64,000 nt of DNA from Sphingobacterium bambusae. GTDB taxonomy: Bacteria; Bacteroidota; Bacteroidia; Sphingobacteriales; Sphingobacteriaceae. Location of the stretch: positions 1,116,001 through 1,180,000 of the forward strand of contig NZ_CP138332.1 of assembly GCF_033955345.1 (NCBI RefSeq). The letters are read 5' to 3'. Positions 42,477-55,980 of this stretch are shown in pieces (the first letter of the stretch is position 1; each line of letters begins with the position of its first letter). Both the position numbers and the translations under genes were made by a program. Under the pieces are notes generated by a model, which had not been told where the DNA came from, did not search any database, and saw nothing but the letters and a program-made list of their open reading frames with translations.

Positions 42477-42956
42477 CTATTTTTTCCATAAACCGCGTCC
42501 ATGATTACGCGCTTCGCGCTCCAATTCTACAAAAAGTTTGGCATATTTTACATTCGGCGGAACAGTATACACCTGCGCATAGCCTTTTTTTACCAATTCC
42601 GCATTCACAAAAGTCTTACCAAGGTAAACGTAGGCCAATATACGACCATAGCGATCACGCTTCCCAACATCTTCCACCAGTCTCACCTTTTTATTGGTCA
42701 GCAATTTCGTCAAGAATACTTTCGATTCCTCGCCATAATAGCCTATCTTTTTTCTTGAAGTGTTTCGTGTTTCTGGAGCATCCACCCCGATTAACCGAAC
42801 TTTATCGCCTTTTTTCGTACCATTTTCGACAACAAAAGTATCACCATCTACCACTCTTTTTACAACAAAAAAACCATCATTTTTAACACAAAAAGACCCA
42901 CATAAAACAATAAAAAAACAACATAAAAATGGTGAAAAAATCAATCTAAAAACCAT
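42477..42956 (-). CDS. Secreted thermonuclease (SNase-like)
   Basis: A 159-residue nuclease with a signal or anchor segment (LIFSPFLCCFFIVLCGSFC) and an SNase OB-fold domain. VDGDTFVVENG, VRLIGVDAPET (catalytic Arg and Asp), GEESKVFLTKLL (catalytic Glu) and DRYGRILAYVYL are all present, so Ca-dependent DNA/RNA cleavage outside the cytoplasm is expected. The start is the ATG at 42956; the frame also has a GTG at 42968. The 5' part of the gene is strongly A/T-skewed compared with its neighbours. It is first in the four-gene run. Confidence 0.88.
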   Translation of the reverse strand: MVFRLIFSPFLCCFFIVLCGSFCVKNDGFFVVKRVVDGDTFVVENGTKKGDKVRLIGVDAPETRNTSRKKIGYYGEESKVFLTKLLTNKKVRLVEDVGKRDRYGRILAYVYLGKTFVNAELVKKGYAQVYTVPPNVKYAKLFVELEREARNHGRGLWKK

Positions 42957-43114
42957 AATCAAAAACACAACTAACTAATAAAAAGATATATACATAAATA
43001 AAACAAGTAAAAAAAACAATATCACAACATCAAAAATTCACTCACAAAAACAATAAAAAAAACATAAAAAACCATCGAAAAAATCATGTTATAAAAAATA
43101 TTTTTAAAAAAATT

Positions 43115-43144
43115 TTGCAGATTAAAAATTAACGTCTACATTTG
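43115..43144 (+). promoter_or_regulatory. Promoter of the pheA-aro operon
   Basis: TTG (43115-43117), 19 bp, then TACATTTG (43137-43144) matches the Bacteroidota consensus. Transcription should start near 43148, about 15 nt before the leader peptide. Confidence 0.7.
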
Positions 43145-43162
43145 ACAAACAAAAAAGAGACA

Positions 43163-43246
43163 ATGACAACAGCAAATACATATTTTTATTTTGGATACTT
43201 TTATTTTAAGGATAAGAGCCGAGATTTGTATGTTGCTGCGAAATAA
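43163..43246 (+). CDS. Phe/Tyr-rich leader peptide of the pheA-aro attenuator
   Basis: A 27-codon ORF beginning at the ATG at 43163 and ending in TAA at 43244-43246, just after a consensus promoter. Codons 7-15 read YFYFGYFYF, that is four Tyr and four Phe in nine residues, and another Tyr follows near the end. It has no resemblance to a functional protein. It precedes prephenate dehydratase (first enzyme of Phe synthesis) and a DAHP synthase/chorismate mutase, and is followed by a terminator with an overlapping antiterminator. This is the layout of classical ribosome-mediated attenuation: shortage of charged Phe- or Tyr-tRNA stalls the ribosome here and lets the downstream genes be transcribed. 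Confidence 0.85.
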   Translation: MTTANTYFYFGYFYFKDKSRDLYVAAK

Positions 43247-43286
43247 GCAAAAAAAGTCTCGGATAACAATTCGGGACTTTTTTTTT
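43219..43286 (+). promoter_or_regulatory. Transcription attenuator: antiterminator and intrinsic terminator
   Basis: Terminator: AAAAAGTCTCG (43251-43261) pairs with CGGGACTTTTT (43272-43282) through 11 bp (one G-U) around a 10-nt loop, ending in a run of nine T (43278-43286). Antiterminator: CCGAGATTT (43219-43227), inside the leader ORF and 12 nt after the last codon of the Phe/Tyr block, is complementary over all 9 positions (one G-U) to AAGTCTCGG (43254-43262), which forms the left arm of the terminator. The two structures are therefore mutually exclusive. The pheA ATG is 15 nt after the T run. Confidence 0.8.
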
Positions 43287-43301
43287 ATTCCAAAAAAATC
43301 A

Positions 43302-44126
43302 ATGAAAACAAAAATTGCAATACAGGGCGTAAAGGCTTCTTTCCATGAAGAAGCTGCTTTTAAATATTTCGGCGAGGAGATTGAAACCCTTGAATGTGAG
43401 TCCTTCAAAAAAACTTGTGACATGTTAAAGCAAGGAAAAGCGGACTACGTCGTTATGGCCATCGAAAACTCTATCGCTGGAAGTATACTTCCTAACTACA
43501 ATTTGTTGCGCGATTACCGTTTTCACATTATCGGCGAGGTGCACCTTAACATCCAACAGAACCTATTGGTCTACCCTGGCGTTAAACTTACAGACCTGAA
43601 GTTCGTGGAATCGCACCCTATAGCTATCCGTCAGTGTGATGAGTTTCTAAGCGACTTCCCTGACTGGACAATAAAAGAAGGTATGGATACCGCCGCTTGT
43701 GCAAAAAATATCGCAGACAACAAGTTAAAGAACACCGCTGCTATAGCCAGCGCCATGGCGGCTAAGCTCTATGGGTTGGAAATATTGGAAAAACGTATTG
43801 AGACAAACAAAAAGAACGCAACGCGCTTTTTGATCTTGGCCAACGAAGTTGTGGAACAAAAAAATGCCAATAAAGCGTCGCTATCTTTCCAAACGGGAAA
43901 TGCAGTGGGCTCCTTGGCGAATGTCCTACAATGTTTTGCCGAGCAGCATGTAAACTTGAGCAAGATTCAGTCTATGCCCGTTGTAGGCAAAAGGAATGAA
44001 TATGATTTTTATGTCGACGTAGAATGGAAAAAACAGAGCGATTATGACGCCGCCATCCGTAAAGTACTGAAGCATACCGTGAACTTCAACATCATGGGAG
44101 AATACATTAAAAACGAAAAAGTATAA
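43302..44126 (+). CDS. pheA: Prephenate dehydratase
   Basis: Converts prephenate to phenylpyruvate, the committed step to phenylalanine. The 274-residue protein has the periplasmic-binding-like catalytic domain (about 1-180; KIAIQGVKASFHEEAAFKYF at the start and KKNATRFLIL with the Thr-Arg-Phe active-site motif) and a C-terminal ACT domain (about 190-270) that probably binds Phe for feedback inhibition. The start is the ATG at 43302, just past the attenuator; the open frame upstream overlaps the leader and is not used. It leads the operon with DAHP synthase, aroA, aroC and a ROK protein. Confidence 0.93.
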   Translation: MKTKIAIQGVKASFHEEAAFKYFGEEIETLECESFKKTCDMLKQGKADYVVMAIENSIAGSILPNYNLLRDYRFHIIGEVHLNIQQNLLVYPGVKLTDLKFVESHPIAIRQCDEFLSDFPDWTIKEGMDTAACAKNIADNKLKNTAAIASAMAAKLYGLEILEKRIETNKKNATRFLILANEVVEQKNANKASLSFQTGNAVGSLANVLQCFAEQHVNLSKIQSMPVVGKRNEYDFYVDVEWKKQSDYDAAIRKVLKHTVNFNIMGEYIKNEKV

Positions 44127-44155: not shown

Positions 44156-45262
44156 ATGAAACATACATTAGACATCGTCCCTTTAAAATCTTGGATAGAT
44201 ACAGGCGACAAACCTTTAATCATTGCGGGTCCTTGTAGTGCAGAAACCGAAGAACAAGTGGTTTCAACAGCACATCTACTTGCCAACACGGGTAAAGTAA
44301 ACGTATTGAGAGCTGGTATCTGGAAGCCGCGTACAAGACCAGGAGAATTTGAAGGCATTGGTAGCGTAGGCTTACAATGGTTAAAACGCGCCAAAGAAGA
44401 AACAGGCTTATTGACAGCTACTGAAGTTGCTACGGCTAAACATGTCGAAGAAGCATTGGCTGCAGGTGTTGATGTATTGTGGATCGGCGCACGGTCTACT
44501 GCAAATCCGTTCACCGTGCAGGAAATTGCGGATGCCCTTGTTGGTGTGGATATCCCTGTATTGATCAAAAATCCGGTAAACCCTGATCTTTCACTTTGGA
44601 TTGGAGCCTTGGAGCGCGTAAACCGTGCCGGAATCAAGAAATTAGCAGCCATCCACCGCGGTTTCTCTTCTTTCGAGAAAACAGCTTTCCGCAACGAACC
44701 GATGTGGGATTTGGCCATCCAATTGAAATCAGCTTGTCCAGAATTACCTATCATCAATGATCCTAGCCATATCTGTGGAAATAGAGAATTGATCCCTTAC
44801 ATTGCGCAAAAAGCAATGGATATGGATTTGCAAGGCTTGATTATCGAGTCCCATATTGATCCTTCGGTAGCATGGACCGATGCAAAGCAACAGGTAACGC
44901 CTGCGTCACTAGCAGAACTTTTAGACAACCTTTCGGTTCGTCATCCTGAATCCAACAACCCTGCTTTTGAAGATAAATTAGCCGAATTACGTCAGCAAAT
45001 TGACAAATTGGATGATGCTATCTTACAACAGATCGGTGACCGCATGAAAATAGCGGAGAAAATTGGCCAGTACAAACGCGACAATAACGTCACGATCCTT
45101 CAAGTAAATCGTTGGGACGAGATTGTGCAGAAACGTGTGCAGCTTGCGAAAGCACTTTCTTTGAGCGAAGATTTCGCATCGAAGTACCTGGAATTGCTAC
45201 ACAACGAGTCTATTCGCAAACAAAATGAGATCATGAATACGAATTCTATAGCGGAGGCATAA
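44156..45262 (+). CDS. Bifunctional DAHP synthase/chorismate mutase
   Basis: Carries out the first step of the shikimate pathway (PEP plus erythrose 4-phosphate) and the chorismate-to-prephenate step. The 368 residues comprise an N-terminal KdsA-like type I-beta DAHP synthase (about 1-255; IIAGPCSAETEEQ, LRAGIWKPRTRPGEFEGIG, INDPSHICGNRE) and a C-terminal AroQ chorismate mutase (about 270-360; LAELRQQIDKLDDAILQQIG). This fusion order is common in Bacteroidota, with the mutase domain acting as a regulatory and catalytic partner. It is 29 nt after pheA and overlaps aroA by one base (TAATG). Confidence 0.95.
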   Translation: MKHTLDIVPLKSWIDTGDKPLIIAGPCSAETEEQVVSTAHLLANTGKVNVLRAGIWKPRTRPGEFEGIGSVGLQWLKRAKEETGLLTATEVATAKHVEEALAAGVDVLWIGARSTANPFTVQEIADALVGVDIPVLIKNPVNPDLSLWIGALERVNRAGIKKLAAIHRGFSSFEKTAFRNEPMWDLAIQLKSACPELPIINDPSHICGNRELIPYIAQKAMDMDLQGLIIESHIDPSVAWTDAKQQVTPASLAELLDNLSVRHPESNNPAFEDKLAELRQQIDKLDDAILQQIGDRMKIAEKIGQYKRDNNVTILQVNRWDEIVQKRVQLAKALSLSEDFASKYLELLHNESIRKQNEIMNTNSIAEA

Positions 45263-46515
45263 TGAGTTTATCCACAATTAAGCTCTCCCATTCTTCAAAA
45301 AAAGTACAAGGCACGGTTCAACTTACTGGTTCTAAATCAGAGAGCAACCGTGCTCTTATTATACAGGCACTCAGCAAAGGATTGGTAACGGTCGAAAACC
45401 TTTCCGCAGCAGCAGATACCGTCATTATGCAGAACGCACTGCAGCAAGCTGCGGCGAGCAGCGCGCAAACCACTACGACGATCGATATTGGCCCTGCTGG
45501 AACAGCCATGCGTTTTCTAACATCCTACTTAAATCTAGTAAAAGGCCAATTTTTGTTGACCGGCACAGCGCGTATGCAACAGCGTCCCATTGGCATCTTG
45601 GTGGATGCCCTGCACACGCTAGGAGCACAAATTGATTACGCCAAACAGGATGGATACCCTCCCCTAAGCATAAATGGCGGGCTCAGGCTGACAAAAAACT
45701 GTGTTTCCATCCAAGGAAACATCAGTAGTCAGTACATTTCTTCCCTGCTCCTTGTCGCGGCATCCTTAAACAACGGCCTTATCCTCGACATTCAAGGAGA
45801 ATTGACATCAAGGCCATACGTTACGATGACCTTGAACATGCTGCAGGAAGCTGGAGTAAACTACACATGGAATGATAATTCCATCGAGATCAAGGCACAA
45901 ACATTCAAGCCGACCACTATTTTTGTGGAACCCGACTGGAGCGCTGCCTCCTACTGGTACGCCATCGTTGCCCTTTCGGAAGACGGAGCGATTGTATTAC
46001 CAGGACTCAAGGCACACAGCCTACAAGGAGACATCGCCATCGTCGATATCATGACGCATTTCGGTGTGGCCAGTTCCTTCCAAGAAGACGGCCTCCACAT
46101 TGCAAAAGTCAGCCAAGGAACCGACAAGCAGCTTTTCGACTTCAAAGAATGCCCCGATTTAGCACAAACCATCGTGGCTCTAGCTGCTGCGCTAAAAAGG
46201 GACATTTCCATCACGGGCGTGGAAACGCTTAAAATCAAAGAAACAGACCGCTTGGCCGCGCTCAAAACGGAAATCGAGAAATTCGGTGCCACTATAGTAG
46301 CAGACAACAATACTTACCATATAAAAACCGAGGTCGTACAGCCCGTTGAACATATTACATTTGACACCTACGAAGATCACCGCATGGCTATGGCCTTTGC
46401 CCCATTAGCTTTGGTTTTCAAGGAAGTAAGCATCAACGAGCCACAAGTGGTTGAAAAATCCTATCCAGACTATTGGGTACATTTGGAACAACAAGGCTTT
46501 CAAATCCGTAAATAA
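45262..46515 (+). CDS. aroA: 3-phosphoshikimate 1-carboxyvinyltransferase (EPSP synthase)
   Basis: Joins PEP to shikimate 3-phosphate. It has 417 residues in two inverse alpha/beta domains. GSKSESNRALIIQAL is the N-terminal Lys-Ser substrate motif, IGPAGTAMRFLTSYL the PEP-site loop (the family's NxGTxxR), and LKIKETDRLAALKTEI plus YEDHRMAMAFA the C-terminal catalytic motifs. The sequence TGSKSESNR at the shikimate site and AGTAMR differ slightly from the classical class I forms but are typical of Bacteroidota. A strong hairpin lies between this gene and aroC. Confidence 0.95.
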   Translation: MSLSTIKLSHSSKKVQGTVQLTGSKSESNRALIIQALSKGLVTVENLSAAADTVIMQNALQQAAASSAQTTTTIDIGPAGTAMRFLTSYLNLVKGQFLLTGTARMQQRPIGILVDALHTLGAQIDYAKQDGYPPLSINGGLRLTKNCVSIQGNISSQYISSLLLVAASLNNGLILDIQGELTSRPYVTMTLNMLQEAGVNYTWNDNSIEIKAQTFKPTTIFVEPDWSAASYWYAIVALSEDGAIVLPGLKAHSLQGDIAIVDIMTHFGVASSFQEDGLHIAKVSQGTDKQLFDFKECPDLAQTIVALAAALKRDISITGVETLKIKETDRLAALKTEIEKFGATIVADNNTYHIKTEVVQPVEHITFDTYEDHRMAMAFAPLALVFKEVSINEPQVVEKSYPDYWVHLEQQGFQIRK

Positions 46516-46585: not shown

Positions 46586-47680
46586 ATGGCTGGAAACTCA
46601 TTTGGCCATCTGTTTAAAATCAGCACCTTTGGCGAATCCCATGGAAAAGCGATAGGTGTTATTATAGATGGATGTCCCCCTAATATTGAAATAGACGAAG
46701 AATTCATCCAATCAGAGCTGGACAAGCGGAAGCCCGGACAGTCCAAAATTACCACACAACGTAAAGAAAGTGACGTTGCGCAAATTCTTTCCGGCGTATT
46801 CGAAGGAAAGTCTACGGGCACGCCTATAGCCATACTTATACCTAATAAAGACCAGCGGTCGAAGGATTATTCGCACATTGCCGATAAATATCGTCCCTCG
46901 CATGCCGACTATACCTATCAACAAAAATATGGCATTCGCGATTTCCGAGGTGGAGGACGCTCTTCGGCAAGGGAAACTGCGGCGCGCGTAGCCGCCGGAG
47001 CAGTGGCCAAGCTATTCCTGAAGAAGCATGGCATCGCGATCTTTGCCCATGTATCCGCCGTTGGAACAATAGAATCACCAAATCTGGATCATAGCGACCT
47101 CGACGCATTACTTGCGCTCCGAGAAGAAAATATCGCACGTTGTGCAGATCCCGCGACGGCCAACGAAATGATTGAGCTCATCGACAGCGTACGCAAAGAT
47201 GGCGATACCATTGGCGGAAAAATTGCTACCGTAGTGCGCAATGTACCGGTGGGACTCGGCGAGCCGGTATTTGACAAATTGCACGCAGACTTGGCAAAAG
47301 CTATGATGAGCATCAATGCGGTCCACGGCTTTGAATACGGATCCGGATTTAGTGGATCAGCGATGCGCGGATCCGAACATAACGATATTTTCATCAAAGA
47401 AGGCGATAAAGTAAGTACCCGTACCAATTTCTCCGGAGGAATACAGGGAGGTATCTCAAACGGAATGGATATTACTTTTCGAACAGCTTTCAAACCGGTT
47501 GCAACCATCATGCGCGACCAAGATACCATAAACGAAGCTGGCGAAAACACCAGCATCTCCGGAAAAGGAAGACACGATCCTTGCGTGGTATCCCGAGCGG
47601 TAATCATCGTCGAAGCGATGACCGCATTAGTTTTAGCAGACCATTTTTTAAGATTTAGAGCATATAAGAATGAACAGTAA
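46586..47680 (+). CDS. aroC: Chorismate synthase
   Basis: Makes chorismate from EPSP using reduced FMN. The 364 residues carry the three signature regions: [19 protein letters not shown] at the N-terminus, [20 protein letters not shown] in the middle and [18 protein letters not shown] near the end. The active-site His residues in GESHG and SAVGT regions are conserved. It overlaps the ROK gene by 11 nt. It completes the later shikimate pathway together with aroA in this operon. Confidence 0.96.
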
Positions 47681-53582: not shown

Positions 53583-54173
53583 ATGTTTACTGGAATTATT
53601 GAAACCTTAGGTACCGTAACAAAAGTCGAGCACGATCAAAGCAACATTCATTTCTTTATTACCTCGTCCCTATCGAAAGAACTGAAAATTGATCAAAGTG
53701 TGTCGCACAACGGCGTATGTCTTACTGTGGTCAACGTACAGGCCGATAGCCACCAAGTTACGGCCATCCAAGAAACATTGACAAAGTCGAACTTAGGAAC
53801 ACTAAAGGTCGGTGATCTAGTGAATATAGAACGCTGTACCTTAGCAAATGGACGCTTTGATGGACACATCGTTCAAGGACACGTGGATCAAACAGCTATT
53901 TGCACAGCAAAAGAGGATCAACATGGAAGCTGGTTGTTCACATTTGAATACGACCCTACACAGCAAAATATTACTGTGGAAAAAGGGTCGATCACCGTAA
54001 ATGGTATTAGCCTTACCGTATTAAACTCGACAAACAACAGTTTTGCTGTGGCAATTATCCCTTACACCATCGAACATACCAACCTTCAACATACCAAGGT
54101 CGGTGACAGCGTCAATCTGGAATTCGATATTGTTGGTAAATATGTATCAAAAATTATGGCCATGCGCGGATAA
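53583..54173 (+). CDS. ribE: Riboflavin synthase, alpha chain
   Basis: Converts two molecules of 6,7-dimethyl-8-ribityllumazine to riboflavin. The 196 residues consist of two lumazine-binding repeats: MFTGIIETLGTV with SHNGVCLTVVNV in the first, and VQGHVDQTAIC with TVNGISLTVLNS in the second. The start is the ATG at 53583, since MFTGII is the invariant N-terminus and the earlier TTG at 53541 lies before the -7 element. The gene stands alone, without other rib genes nearby. Confidence 0.96.
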   Translation: MFTGIIETLGTVTKVEHDQSNIHFFITSSLSKELKIDQSVSHNGVCLTVVNVQADSHQVTAIQETLTKSNLGTLKVGDLVNIERCTLANGRFDGHIVQGHVDQTAICTAKEDQHGSWLFTFEYDPTQQNITVEKGSITVNGISLTVLNSTNNSFAVAIIPYTIEHTNLQHTKVGDSVNLEFDIVGKYVSKIMAMRG

Positions 54174-54183
54174 GCATGGCCAT
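54156..54183. terminator. Hairpin at the ribE-ClC junction
   Basis: ATGGCCATGC (54156-54165) pairs perfectly with GCATGGCCAT (54174-54183) around an 8-nt loop, overlapping the last codons of ribE. It separates converging genes. Confidence 0.5.
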
Positions 54184-54189
54184 GATTGG

Positions 54190-55980
54190 TTACTCTAGAT
54201 AATGTCCCTGTCGCACTAGCAGCGCCCGATACTTATTGAATACACTGGATTTCGAAACAAATCCAAGATAGCGATTGCTTTCATCCACCACAGGTAATAT
54301 CCATACATCATCTCTATTCATCTTGGACATCACAATCTCCATATTTTCCCTTTCTTGAATAACATCATTGGGTTTCTGCGCCAGCTTATCAAAGGTCTTT
54401 TCAACACCTTCCTCCTCGCCCAGCAACACCGAAAACAAGTATTCACTATAAATAGTACCGAGCAAGACGCCCTTTTCATCCACTACAGGAAAAATATTCC
54501 GCTTAGAATGGATAATATCGGACTTTCGGTCATGAGGTGTTTCTGTAGGCCGCAAGACAACAAAATTCGTCTCCAGTACATAACGGAGCTTCATCATACT
54601 CAGCACTGTGCGATCTTTATCTTCATAAGATAATAAGTCACCCGACTCCGCCAAAACCTTTGTGTAGATAGAGTGCTTCAATATAGACCGATTAATGAGA
54701 TAAGATATCGACGTAACCAGCATCAACGGCACCATCAAGGTGTAGCCACCCGTAATCTCTGCAATAAGAAATAACCCCGTGAGCGGCGCATGCATAATCC
54801 CGGCTAAAGCACCAGCCATACCGGCCATCACAAAATTGGGCACGTTAAGCATGACAAACCCCGTTTGGTTCATCCCATAGGCAAAGGCAAAACCAAGGAG
54901 CCCTCCCATCACCAAACTGGGGCCAAAAACACCACCATTACCACCACCATTTAAGGTAAATAAGGAGGCCAACGATTTCGCGAAAAGCGTAACAACGGTA
55001 TAGGATATCACTACCCAAGCAATATTTTTATAATCCGAAAACAGACTATTCTGTACGATAGCATCGAATTTTCCATCCAAAATCTGCTGTATGGTGATAT
55101 AGCCCTCTCCATACAAAGCGGGAAATACGAAAATCATTAAACCCAATGATATCCCACTGAACCACACTTTATTGTAAGGATTGGAAATACGCCCAAACCA
55201 ACGTTTTACAACATTACTAATTTTCGCGAAGTAGACCGTATACAGCCCCACGATTACAGCTAAGACGATATAGAAAAAGAGTGCTTCCACTTCCCATTCG
55301 GTTGTGGCCGTATGGAAAAGAGGTTCACTGTAAAGCAATCGCGAGACGACAGATGCCAAAGCAGCCGATATCAGCAAAGGAATAAAGGCCGGAATGGAAA
55401 ACTCGGGCAACAAGATCTCGATCGCAAAGATCATCCCTGCAATCGGACTGTTGAACGCACCGGAAATACCCGCCGCCGCTCCGCAGGCCAGCAACATGGT
55501 TATCTCCTTGTACTGCAACCCAAAAAAGCGACCGGTATTCGAACCTATCGCCGATCCACTGTAAGCTATCGGCGCCTCCAATCCGCACGACCCGCCAAAT
55601 CCAACCGTTATCGCACTAGTAACAATCTGCGAATAGATGTTGTGCGGCTCTATCCTACTGGATTTCCTAGAAATGGAATAGATAATCGGCGTAATACCAT
55701 GCTCCAAGCGTTTGCCGCGCAAAAACTTACGCACGTAGATCACACTAAACAAAATTCCAAACAAAGGCAAAATCAAATAAAACGAATACTTAAAATGCCA
55801 ATCTATATCATTCTGCAAAGTTGATGCTATAAAGTGGGTCAAGCCCTTCAACAGTGCGGCCGCCAAACCACCAATAACGCCCACAACGAAAGCCAGGATA
55901 ATCATAAAGTTCCGGTTGGAAATCTTATGCATCCGCCACTGATTTATTTGGTCCAGTTTTTTGTAGATCGTAAATTTCAT
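54190..55980 (-). CDS. ClC-family chloride channel/transporter with CBS domains
   Basis: A 596-residue inner-membrane protein. The ClC core (about 20-440) has the gating Glu in GGSCGLEAPIAYSGSAIGS and the later anion-site motif GGGNGGVFGPSLVMGG; the first-motif Ser region is altered, as in many bacterial members. A pair of cytoplasmic CBS domains (about 460-590) follows and may bind adenine nucleotides. It moves chloride or another halide, perhaps fluoride, with or without proton exchange. It begins 16 nt after the oxyR stop on the same strand, so both are probably cotranscribed. Confidence 0.88.
   Translation of the reverse strand: MKFTIYKKLDQINQWRMHKISNRNFMIILAFVVGVIGGLAAALLKGLTHFIASTLQNDIDWHFKYSFYLILPLFGILFSVIYVRKFLRGKRLEHGITPIIYSISRKSSRIEPHNIYSQIVTSAITVGFGGSCGLEAPIAYSGSAIGSNTGRFFGLQYKEITMLLACGAAAGISGAFNSPIAGMIFAIEILLPEFSIPAFIPLLISAALASVVSRLLYSEPLFHTATTEWEVEALFFYIVLAVIVGLYTVYFAKISNVVKRWFGRISNPYNKVWFSGISLGLMIFVFPALYGEGYITIQQILDGKFDAIVQNSLFSDYKNIAWVVISYTVVTLFAKSLASLFTLNGGGNGGVFGPSLVMGGLLGFAFAYGMNQTGFVMLNVPNFVMAGMAGALAGIMHAPLTGLFLIAEITGGYTLMVPLMLVTSISYLINRSILKHSIYTKVLAESGDLLSYEDKDRTVLSMMKLRYVLETNFVVLRPTETPHDRKSDIIHSKRNIFPVVDEKGVLLGTIYSEYLFSVLLGEEEGVEKTFDKLAQKPNDVIQERENMEIVMSKMNRDDVWILPVVDESNRYLGFVSKSSVFNKYRALLVRQGHYLE

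Follow-up and report, generated by a model that had tools for sequence, protein, structure and literature searches.

A probable Phe/Tyr leader-peptide attenuator before the pheA operon of Sphingobacterium bambusae and serial arrangement of similar elements in other Bacteroidota families

How the synthesis of aromatic amino acids is adjusted to their supply is the question raised by the pheA operon of Sphingobacterium bambusae, and the regulation of amino acid biosynthesis in Bacteroidota has, to our knowledge, been little studied. The operon lies in a stretch of 64,000 nucleotides, referred to below as the window, of a genome assembled as a single contig of 5.56 Mb; its PheA shares 98% identity with the Sphingobacterium griseoflavum protein. 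The genes following the leader (pheA, DAHPS/CM, aroA and aroC, Table 1) serve the synthesis of the amino acids presumably sensed, although for Tyr this fit is only partial, as tyrA is located elsewhere in the genome. A ROK-family gene comes next after aroC. No Phe/Tyr leader was detected before the probable tyrA operon in a scan of approximately 1,000 nt ahead of the gene preceding tyrA, a probable aminotransferase gene named by eye. Between pheA and its upstream neighbour the first-pass annotation placed a ribosome-mediated attenuator with mutually exclusive folds. Conservation and covariation among related loci support this reading, and we estimate at about 0.9 the probability that the element is a ribosome-mediated transcription attenuator standing before the pheA operon.

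The leader occupies the gap between pheA and an SNase-domain gene. Since the latter is on the minus strand, the terminator of the leader is not the end of any upstream plus-strand operon. The leader contains a short ORF in which codons for the amino acids produced are clustered: the 27 codons with YFYFGYFYF at codons 7–15, described already from the letters, were found in their place and encode MTTANTYFYFGYFYFKDKSRDLYVAAK*. An ORF with eight Phe/Tyr codons in ten appeared in none of 3000 window shuffles. The proposed terminator is also there, between the leader ORF and the first gene, with its nine T. Its fold (43249–43284) has an energy of −17.0 kcal/mol with a shuffle mean of −3.6 (z −8.0, none of 200 shuffles as good), and its stem, first given as 11 bp, comprises 16 bp if flanking A-U pairs are included. 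A simple consensus scan did not list it, probably because the stem extends into the T-run. The nine-position complementarity between a segment of the ORF (region 2) and the left arm of the terminator turned out to consist of eight Watson-Crick pairs and one G-U, and the resulting antiterminator 2:3 (fold of 43205–43265) has −18.2 kcal/mol and z −4.2. For the third fold, 1:2 (43175–43245), the values are −13.7 kcal/mol and z −2.2, five of 200 shuffles being as good. The exclusive antiterminator has its 5′ arm where translation ends, an arrangement that is weaker in the window, with its late stop codon. At 43226–43246 the stop codon usually found where region 2 ends has been lost, extending the leader by six codons; the same is observed in L008 and L014.

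Table 1. Coordinates of the features in and around the pheA leader, in window positions
Feature	Position	Strand	Remark
Nuclease gene, SNase domain	42477-42968	minus	upstream neighbour of leader
Predicted Bacteroidota-type promoter: TTTG 43114-43117, 19-nt spacer, TACATTTG 43137-43144	43114..43144	+	predicted from sequence
Leader peptide ORF, 27 codons, MTTANTYFYFGYFYFKDKSRDLYVAAK*	43163..43246	+	counterpart in 101/101 loci including the window
1:2 helix (anti-antiterminator), 43170-43206 with 43210-43238	43170..43238	+	folds; covariation of conserved part
Control codons YFYFGYFYF, codons 7-15	43181..43207	+	reading of leader ORF
Region 2, antiterminator 5′ arm, within leader ORF	43219..43227	+	pairs with 43254-43262; covariation
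Intrinsic terminator 3:4, 43249-43264 with 43269-43284, T-run 43278-43286	43249..43286	+	fold, covariation; 5′ arm contains region 3
pheA, prephenate dehydratase	43302..44126	+	Pfam PF00800, E 4e-57
DAHP synthase fused to chorismate mutase	44156..45262	+	PF00793 + PF01817
aroA, EPSP synthase	45262..46515	+	PF00275
aroC, chorismate synthase	46586..47680	+	PF01264

With these parts regulation may proceed as follows. Transcription would start just 5′ of the leader ORF, with a ribosome trailing RNA polymerase. When charged Phe- and Tyr-tRNA are ample, the ribosome would clear the aromatic tract and cover region 2, leaving region 3 free for the 3:4 terminator, and transcription would stop before pheA. 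When either tRNA is scarce, the ribosome would stall on one of codons 7–15, masking region 1 and not region 2, which could then pair with region 3, so that the polymerase would continue into pheA-DAHPS/CM-aroA-aroC. The start site, leader translation, stalling and the response to Phe and to Tyr are here inferred from sequence, while the position of the switch was modelled.

Two sets of related loci were used to follow the element. From 224 relatives the best 80 loci were taken for upstream reading, and in every one of them an ORF with at least six Phe/Tyr in ten residues precedes pheA. Most of them are labelled Sphingobacterium or near genera, one (L071) only Bacteroidetes. One more (L080) is labelled as a Legionellaceae MAG, but its pheA and leader are Daejeonella-like, and it probably represents a mislabelled or mixed bin. 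Another 20 loci, picked among listed coordinates to span genera, came from the family, where 183 of 201 genomes have PheA; a leader was present in 20/20, at least two of these loci apparently duplicating contigs of the first set (L092/L079, L094/L066). Together with the window this makes 101 loci, or 69 non-redundant leaders after removal of those more than 93% identical. The conserved short Phe/Tyr ORF, expected among relatives if the annotation was right, was found in 101/101 loci in or near the family, while at least six Phe/Tyr in ten codons occurred in 22 of 2020 shuffled upstream regions. L068 has an additional short ORF, MSATFFYFFY*, ahead of its leader and 194–227 nt before pheA; this ORF has no terminator.

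The promoter claimed for this leader needed reinterpretation. A promoter motif does precede the ORF, but it is not of the sigma-70 type: a simple consensus scan turned up no sigma-70 promoter of use here, its only match, 9 of 12, falling inside the ORF (43163–43192). The combination of TTTG and TACATTTG with a 19-nt spacer corresponds to what we take to be the Bacteroidota promoter form. TAnnTTTG was registered within 90 nt upstream of 98/101 leaders, at a median distance of 18 nt from the ATG, versus 186/2020 shuffles, and in 95 leaders TTG/TTTG sits 18–22 nt above it.

A strict hairpin test was passed by 91 of the 101 loci and failed by ten. In the latter (L048–L055, L062 and L033) the leader is intact, and in L048–L055 and L062 the T-run is interrupted. 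Compensatory changes were registered in all three exclusive stems of the 69 leaders, as the proposed switch led one to expect, with covariation scores (0.313 for 3:4, 0.193 for 2:3 and 0.233 for 1:2) that none of the slid controls and none of the 500 shuffles reached. In the terminator 94.1% of cells are paired and nine of 13 pairs changed on both sides, slid controls reaching at most 66.2% paired. The antiterminator has 86.1% paired cells (at most 58.3% in slid versions) and two-sided changes in five of nine pairs; for the 1:2 helix these values are 84.6% and 6/15, with 65 two-sidedly changed cells versus at most 20 in slid versions. Some controls for 2:3 and 1:2 were weak: the count of changed pairs was reached in 13/500 shuffles for 2:3 and in 254/500 for 1:2, while the 11 two-sided-change cells of 2:3 compare with 9 to 16 in slid versions, three of six matching or passing it (11 to 16). 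Individual loci are also instructive. In L064 regions 2, 3 and 4 change together in matching fashion, and in L065 the 2:3 pairing is retained via G-U.

Which amino acids are perceived by the leader is a separate question. The 69 non-redundant leaders contain 270 Phe, 271 Tyr and 21 Trp codons, with at least two Phe and at least two Tyr codons in each. Phe and Tyr codons look interchangeable in the alignment: the codon in columns 46/47/49, unpaired in the tested consensus, is F in 50 and Y in 18 of 68 rows (one gap), columns 37–39 have Y 31 and F 31 of 69, and third-position changes occur with F/Y kept. The dual sensing of Phe and Tyr claimed at first is supported by this exchange, although it is still an inferred property. 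The same attenuator might instead sense Phe alone, retaining Tyr codons for RNA pairing (UAY with RUA in the 1:2 helix). This would agree with the first gene of the operon being pheA and with the prevalence of Tyr in codon columns of the 1:2 helix (66/69 in columns 22–24 and 67/68 in columns 43–45). In the fold of the window itself even the codon in columns 46/47/49 is partly paired, with bases 43205–43206 facing 43210–43211. However, exchange of F and Y, which alters the middle base, took place where consensus pairing is absent or partial, i.e. in columns 25–27 (F 26, Y 11, W 11 of 69) and 28–30 (Y 29, F 15 of 49) besides 46/47/49, and leaders of other families, having other stems, still mix the two residues (F 81, Y 62 and W 7 in 17 loci of the class that passed the strict test). 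Sensing of Phe alone is therefore rather improbable, though it keeps the best standing among the alternatives.

Slightly less probable is a general aromatic sensor reading Trp besides Phe and Tyr, which is suggested by an operon making chorismate for all three aromatics. A Trp codon is found in 19 of the 69 leaders, and columns 25–27 show W in 11 of 69, but 50/69, the window included, have none, and trp has a leader of its own in this genome.

The position of the switch was estimated in a folding model, in which the RNA ends with region 3 and the ribosome footprint reaches 15 nt upstream and 12 nt downstream of the first A-site base. In the window the modelled probability of pairing 2:3 is 0.95–0.99 with any codon from the first up to and including codon 15, the last Phe, in the A site, and drops to 0.04 with codon 16. 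With the A site on any control codon the antiterminator would thus be left free at a moment when region 4 is not yet made. In the 69 leaders, 481 of 511 tract codons give a probability above 0.5, and in 64 the switch falls 0–2 codons past the last aromatic codon (0, +1 and +2 in 7, 56 and 1 leaders, respectively). Five leaders misfit the model, two switching too early and three never switching on. With the ribosome at the stop codon the probability of 2:3 is below 0.5 in 67/69. If the footprint is set to +9, +11 or +14, the switch falls most often at +2, +1 or 0, respectively (55, 59 and 59 of 69 leaders), 480, 481 and 480 of 511 tract codons are on, and values below 0.5 at the stop codon are obtained in 64, 66 and 68 leaders. 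Counted from the first G in the core of region 2, stop codons start at −8 to −4 in 19/69 leaders and at +5 in 44/69, and a ribosome terminating at either position lies over region 2. The remaining stops are at +8 (one), +14 (two) and +23 (three: the window, L008 and L014). With a ribosome at its stop codon the window has the antiterminator half-formed (0.59–0.72), and the model says that the late stop codon may weaken termination in the window and in L014.

The same model indicates what may happen if the leader is not translated. Without a ribosome the probability of 2:3 in the window is 0.17 or 0.53, depending on slightly different RNA ends, while the mean for the 69 leaders is 0.76 and values below 0.5 occur in 13. 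The antiterminator is thus expected in most relatives, and termination without translation, known for E. coli trp, is not predicted. If region 4 is present and the RNA of the window is at equilibrium, 2:3 is favoured only for stalls at codons 7–9, and 3:4 for codons 10–15 and before codon 7. The model therefore requires the antiterminator to form first and persist.

The switch might also belong to a riboswitch, a T-box or a protein-binding attenuator that happens to contain an ORF. Terminator/antiterminator switches are common to such elements, and leader translation is deduced from the letters; but no Rfam family was matched at gathering score either in the window or in eight other sources tried, conservation tracks codons, and the modelled switch point tracks the aromatic tract, so that we rejected a riboswitch or T-box and regard this whole class of explanations as very unlikely. 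A chance ORF next to an ordinary terminator, which might be imagined because AT-rich intergenic DNA makes chance Phe/Tyr codons frequent (six or more in ten codons in 4/3000 window shuffles), is refuted by the conservation in all 101 loci, by the single unit that the leader-plus-terminator test yielded in 590 shuffles and by the opposite strand of the upstream gene, and its probability is practically negligible.

To find how far the leader-peptide attenuator extends, one can turn to the class. Among 139 sampled genomes 39 had a match to the single PheA query, and the 34 loci outside the family were all read for about 400 nt upstream. The strict ORF-plus-hairpin test was passed by 17 of the 34. 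Six more (L117, L120, L122, L125, L127 and L132) have at least seven F/Y in ten residues and, by eye, a hairpin beyond the strict limits. In 11/34 (L104–L108, L110, L119, L126 and L133–L135) no leader was seen by eye in these 400 nt, and in L119 and L126 the coding frame seems to extend up to pheA. L105 has a terminator-like hairpin directly before pheA and no Phe/Tyr leader, which is perhaps a decayed attenuator. The first of two units in L116 was rejected as a GTG frame, its letters being still within the F, Y and W count given above for the 17 loci. As to the background of the test, 424 window tiles gave the leader described here and one other hit, on the minus strand of tile 54001–54600, where the ORF MYGYYLWWMKAIAILDLFRNPVYSISIGRC with five aromatic residues is accompanied by a hairpin, probably by chance.

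Three families attracted attention by the serial arrangement of their attenuators. G254, G329 and G301 were noticed because they are tandem, and shares of tandem loci in their families therefore do not sample the class at random. The family of G254 (f47) has PheA in 46/60 genomes; 40 of the 46 loci were read, a leader was present in 40/40 and two units in 12/40 (L140–L143, L146–L148, L152, L153, L186, L191 and L199). In ten of these 12 both units pass the automatic test; the second terminator of L141 was taken from a looser scan and the first terminator of L147 was recognized by eye. In the family of G329 (f61) PheA is present in 16/26 genomes. All 16 loci were read, 14 having a leader by the test and L165, which failed the hairpin test, by eye; no leader was found in L176. 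Two units were registered in 7/16 (L163, L164, L168, L169, L171, L174 and L181). The test offered an eighth tandem, L177, which was rejected because the ORF of its second unit overlaps the first terminator. In the family of G301 (f36) PheA is present in 3/12 genomes, with a leader in 3/3 and two units in one of them (L180). Altogether 20 of 59 pheA loci in the three families are tandem, while in the family of the window no tandem units were found in 81 loci (the 80 best relatives and the window, 78 of them with full 600 nt); the other 20 family loci were read for 320 nt upstream only.

Each of the 20 tandem loci has two leader ORFs with their own terminators and no recognizable promoter between them, this last point being weak. 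The distance from the first T-run to the second ORF is about 5–43 nt, as measured between hand-set ends, some of them off by up to 4. Neither TAnnTTTG nor a full promoter was found between the ORFs in any of the 20 loci, but the same search within 90 nt detected the −7 box before the first ORF itself in only 9/20, so that other promoter forms between the ORFs are possible. Both units mix the two amino acids (F 79, Y 73 in unit 1 and F 104, Y 74 in unit 2). Single-sequence folds were obtained for 21 units of 11 tandem loci (unit 1 of L147 was left out), and by reading 19 of them have their own antiterminator; none was seen in the folds of unit 1 of L146 and unit 1 of L128. RNAalifold was applied to 11/12 tandem loci of f47 and 6/7 of f61. 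In f47 two-sided changes were registered in 0/4 predicted pairs of the antiterminator and 1/6 of the terminator of unit 1 and in 2/10 pairs of the unit 2 antiterminator; in f61 the counts are 5/11 for unit 1 (five of the 11 pairs belong to another hairpin) and 1/5 for unit 2. This aligned support is weak, and the tandem antiterminators rest mainly on single-sequence folds of the 11 loci. With some reserve we favour the view that widespread attenuators of Bacteroidota read Phe and Tyr jointly and that three families stack two units for the same signal, gaining a steeper response and a lower repressed level. Since the polymerase must pass both units, readthrough probabilities would multiply, making the response to starvation steeper and the repressed level lower than with one unit. 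The tandem loci may be considered a natural experiment on the gain from a second attenuator for the same signal.

Other leaders of the same genome make the picture more general. The trpE leader, MTTRNLHTNWWWLEANSVGT* with its WWW (L159, reverse complement from base 1245), has a terminator of −17.0 kcal/mol and a competing antiterminator; at E 0.1 it matched no Rfam family, RF01692 included. A hisG leader ORF, MTHLFTHHIHFHHRQIGDM*, with seven His codons (L158:1208–1267) lies behind a TACATTTG box. The same mechanism is not claimed for it, as no good intrinsic terminator is present (z +0.84). With leaders of both trpE and hisG in one genome, leader peptides look like a wider habit of the lineage.

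The nearest classical counterpart is the pheL attenuator of E. coli, where a Phe-codon leader and an antiterminator/terminator switch likewise precede prephenate dehydratase. Unlike in enteric bacteria, Tyr is here as frequent as Phe, the promoter is of the Bacteroidota form, and DAHP, EPSP and chorismate are further products of the operon. The Rfam model of the enteric element (Phe_leader, RF01859) gives the window 22.4 bits, under its gathering score of 55 and below the window's scores for Thr_leader (26.2) and His_leader (24.5), both of which are under their own cut-offs. In Bacteroidetes a leader-peptide cis element has been described for Trp (Bacteroid-trp, RF01692; PMC2864571), and the window scores 19.8 bits with this model, under the gathering score of 49. 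Closest in gene and phylum is the 2021 transcriptome of Flavobacterium psychrophilum, reporting ‘strong clues’ that amino acid operons are preceded by leader-peptide attenuators, together with a structured, conserved 5′ element of pheA without Rfam match, the elements of pheA, hisG and others occurring in other Flavobacteriaceae genera (PMC9723704). That account, in the part available, mentions neither peptide, codons, antiterminator nor Tyr, while here anatomy, covariation and distribution are given. It also states that Shine-Dalgarno sites are absent in flavobacteria (PMC9723704). Our data suggest that attenuation sensing tRNA charging may work in this phylum without such sites, and coupling of ribosome and polymerase becomes directly testable there. 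Elsewhere, sORFs of B. thetaiotaomicron were called ‘reminiscent of leader peptides’ (PMC7366714), a Phe uORF motif was noted upstream of aroF in Acholeplasma (PMC8632094), and the accessible portions of two other papers (PMC4833913, PMC10272879) contain nothing on pheA of this group. A search to which most subscription journals were external returned, in the texts partly available, no description of a Phe/Tyr leader in this group or of same-signal tandem leader-peptide attenuators. The novelty attributed to the leader at first stands therefore only in part, the Phe/Tyr form being partly described, with the F. psychrophilum element (PMC9723704) and RF01692 preceding it. Two short ORFs are likewise serial in one leader mRNA of Salmonella mgtCBR, but there the signals differ (ATP and proline), whereas tandem loci considered here use the same amino acids twice, have their own terminator-like hairpins and precede a biosynthetic gene (PMC3641672, as far as its available part goes). 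The attenuator is thus of a classical kind, its Phe/Tyr form has been only partly described in the phylum, and what is newest here is the serial arrangement seen in other families.
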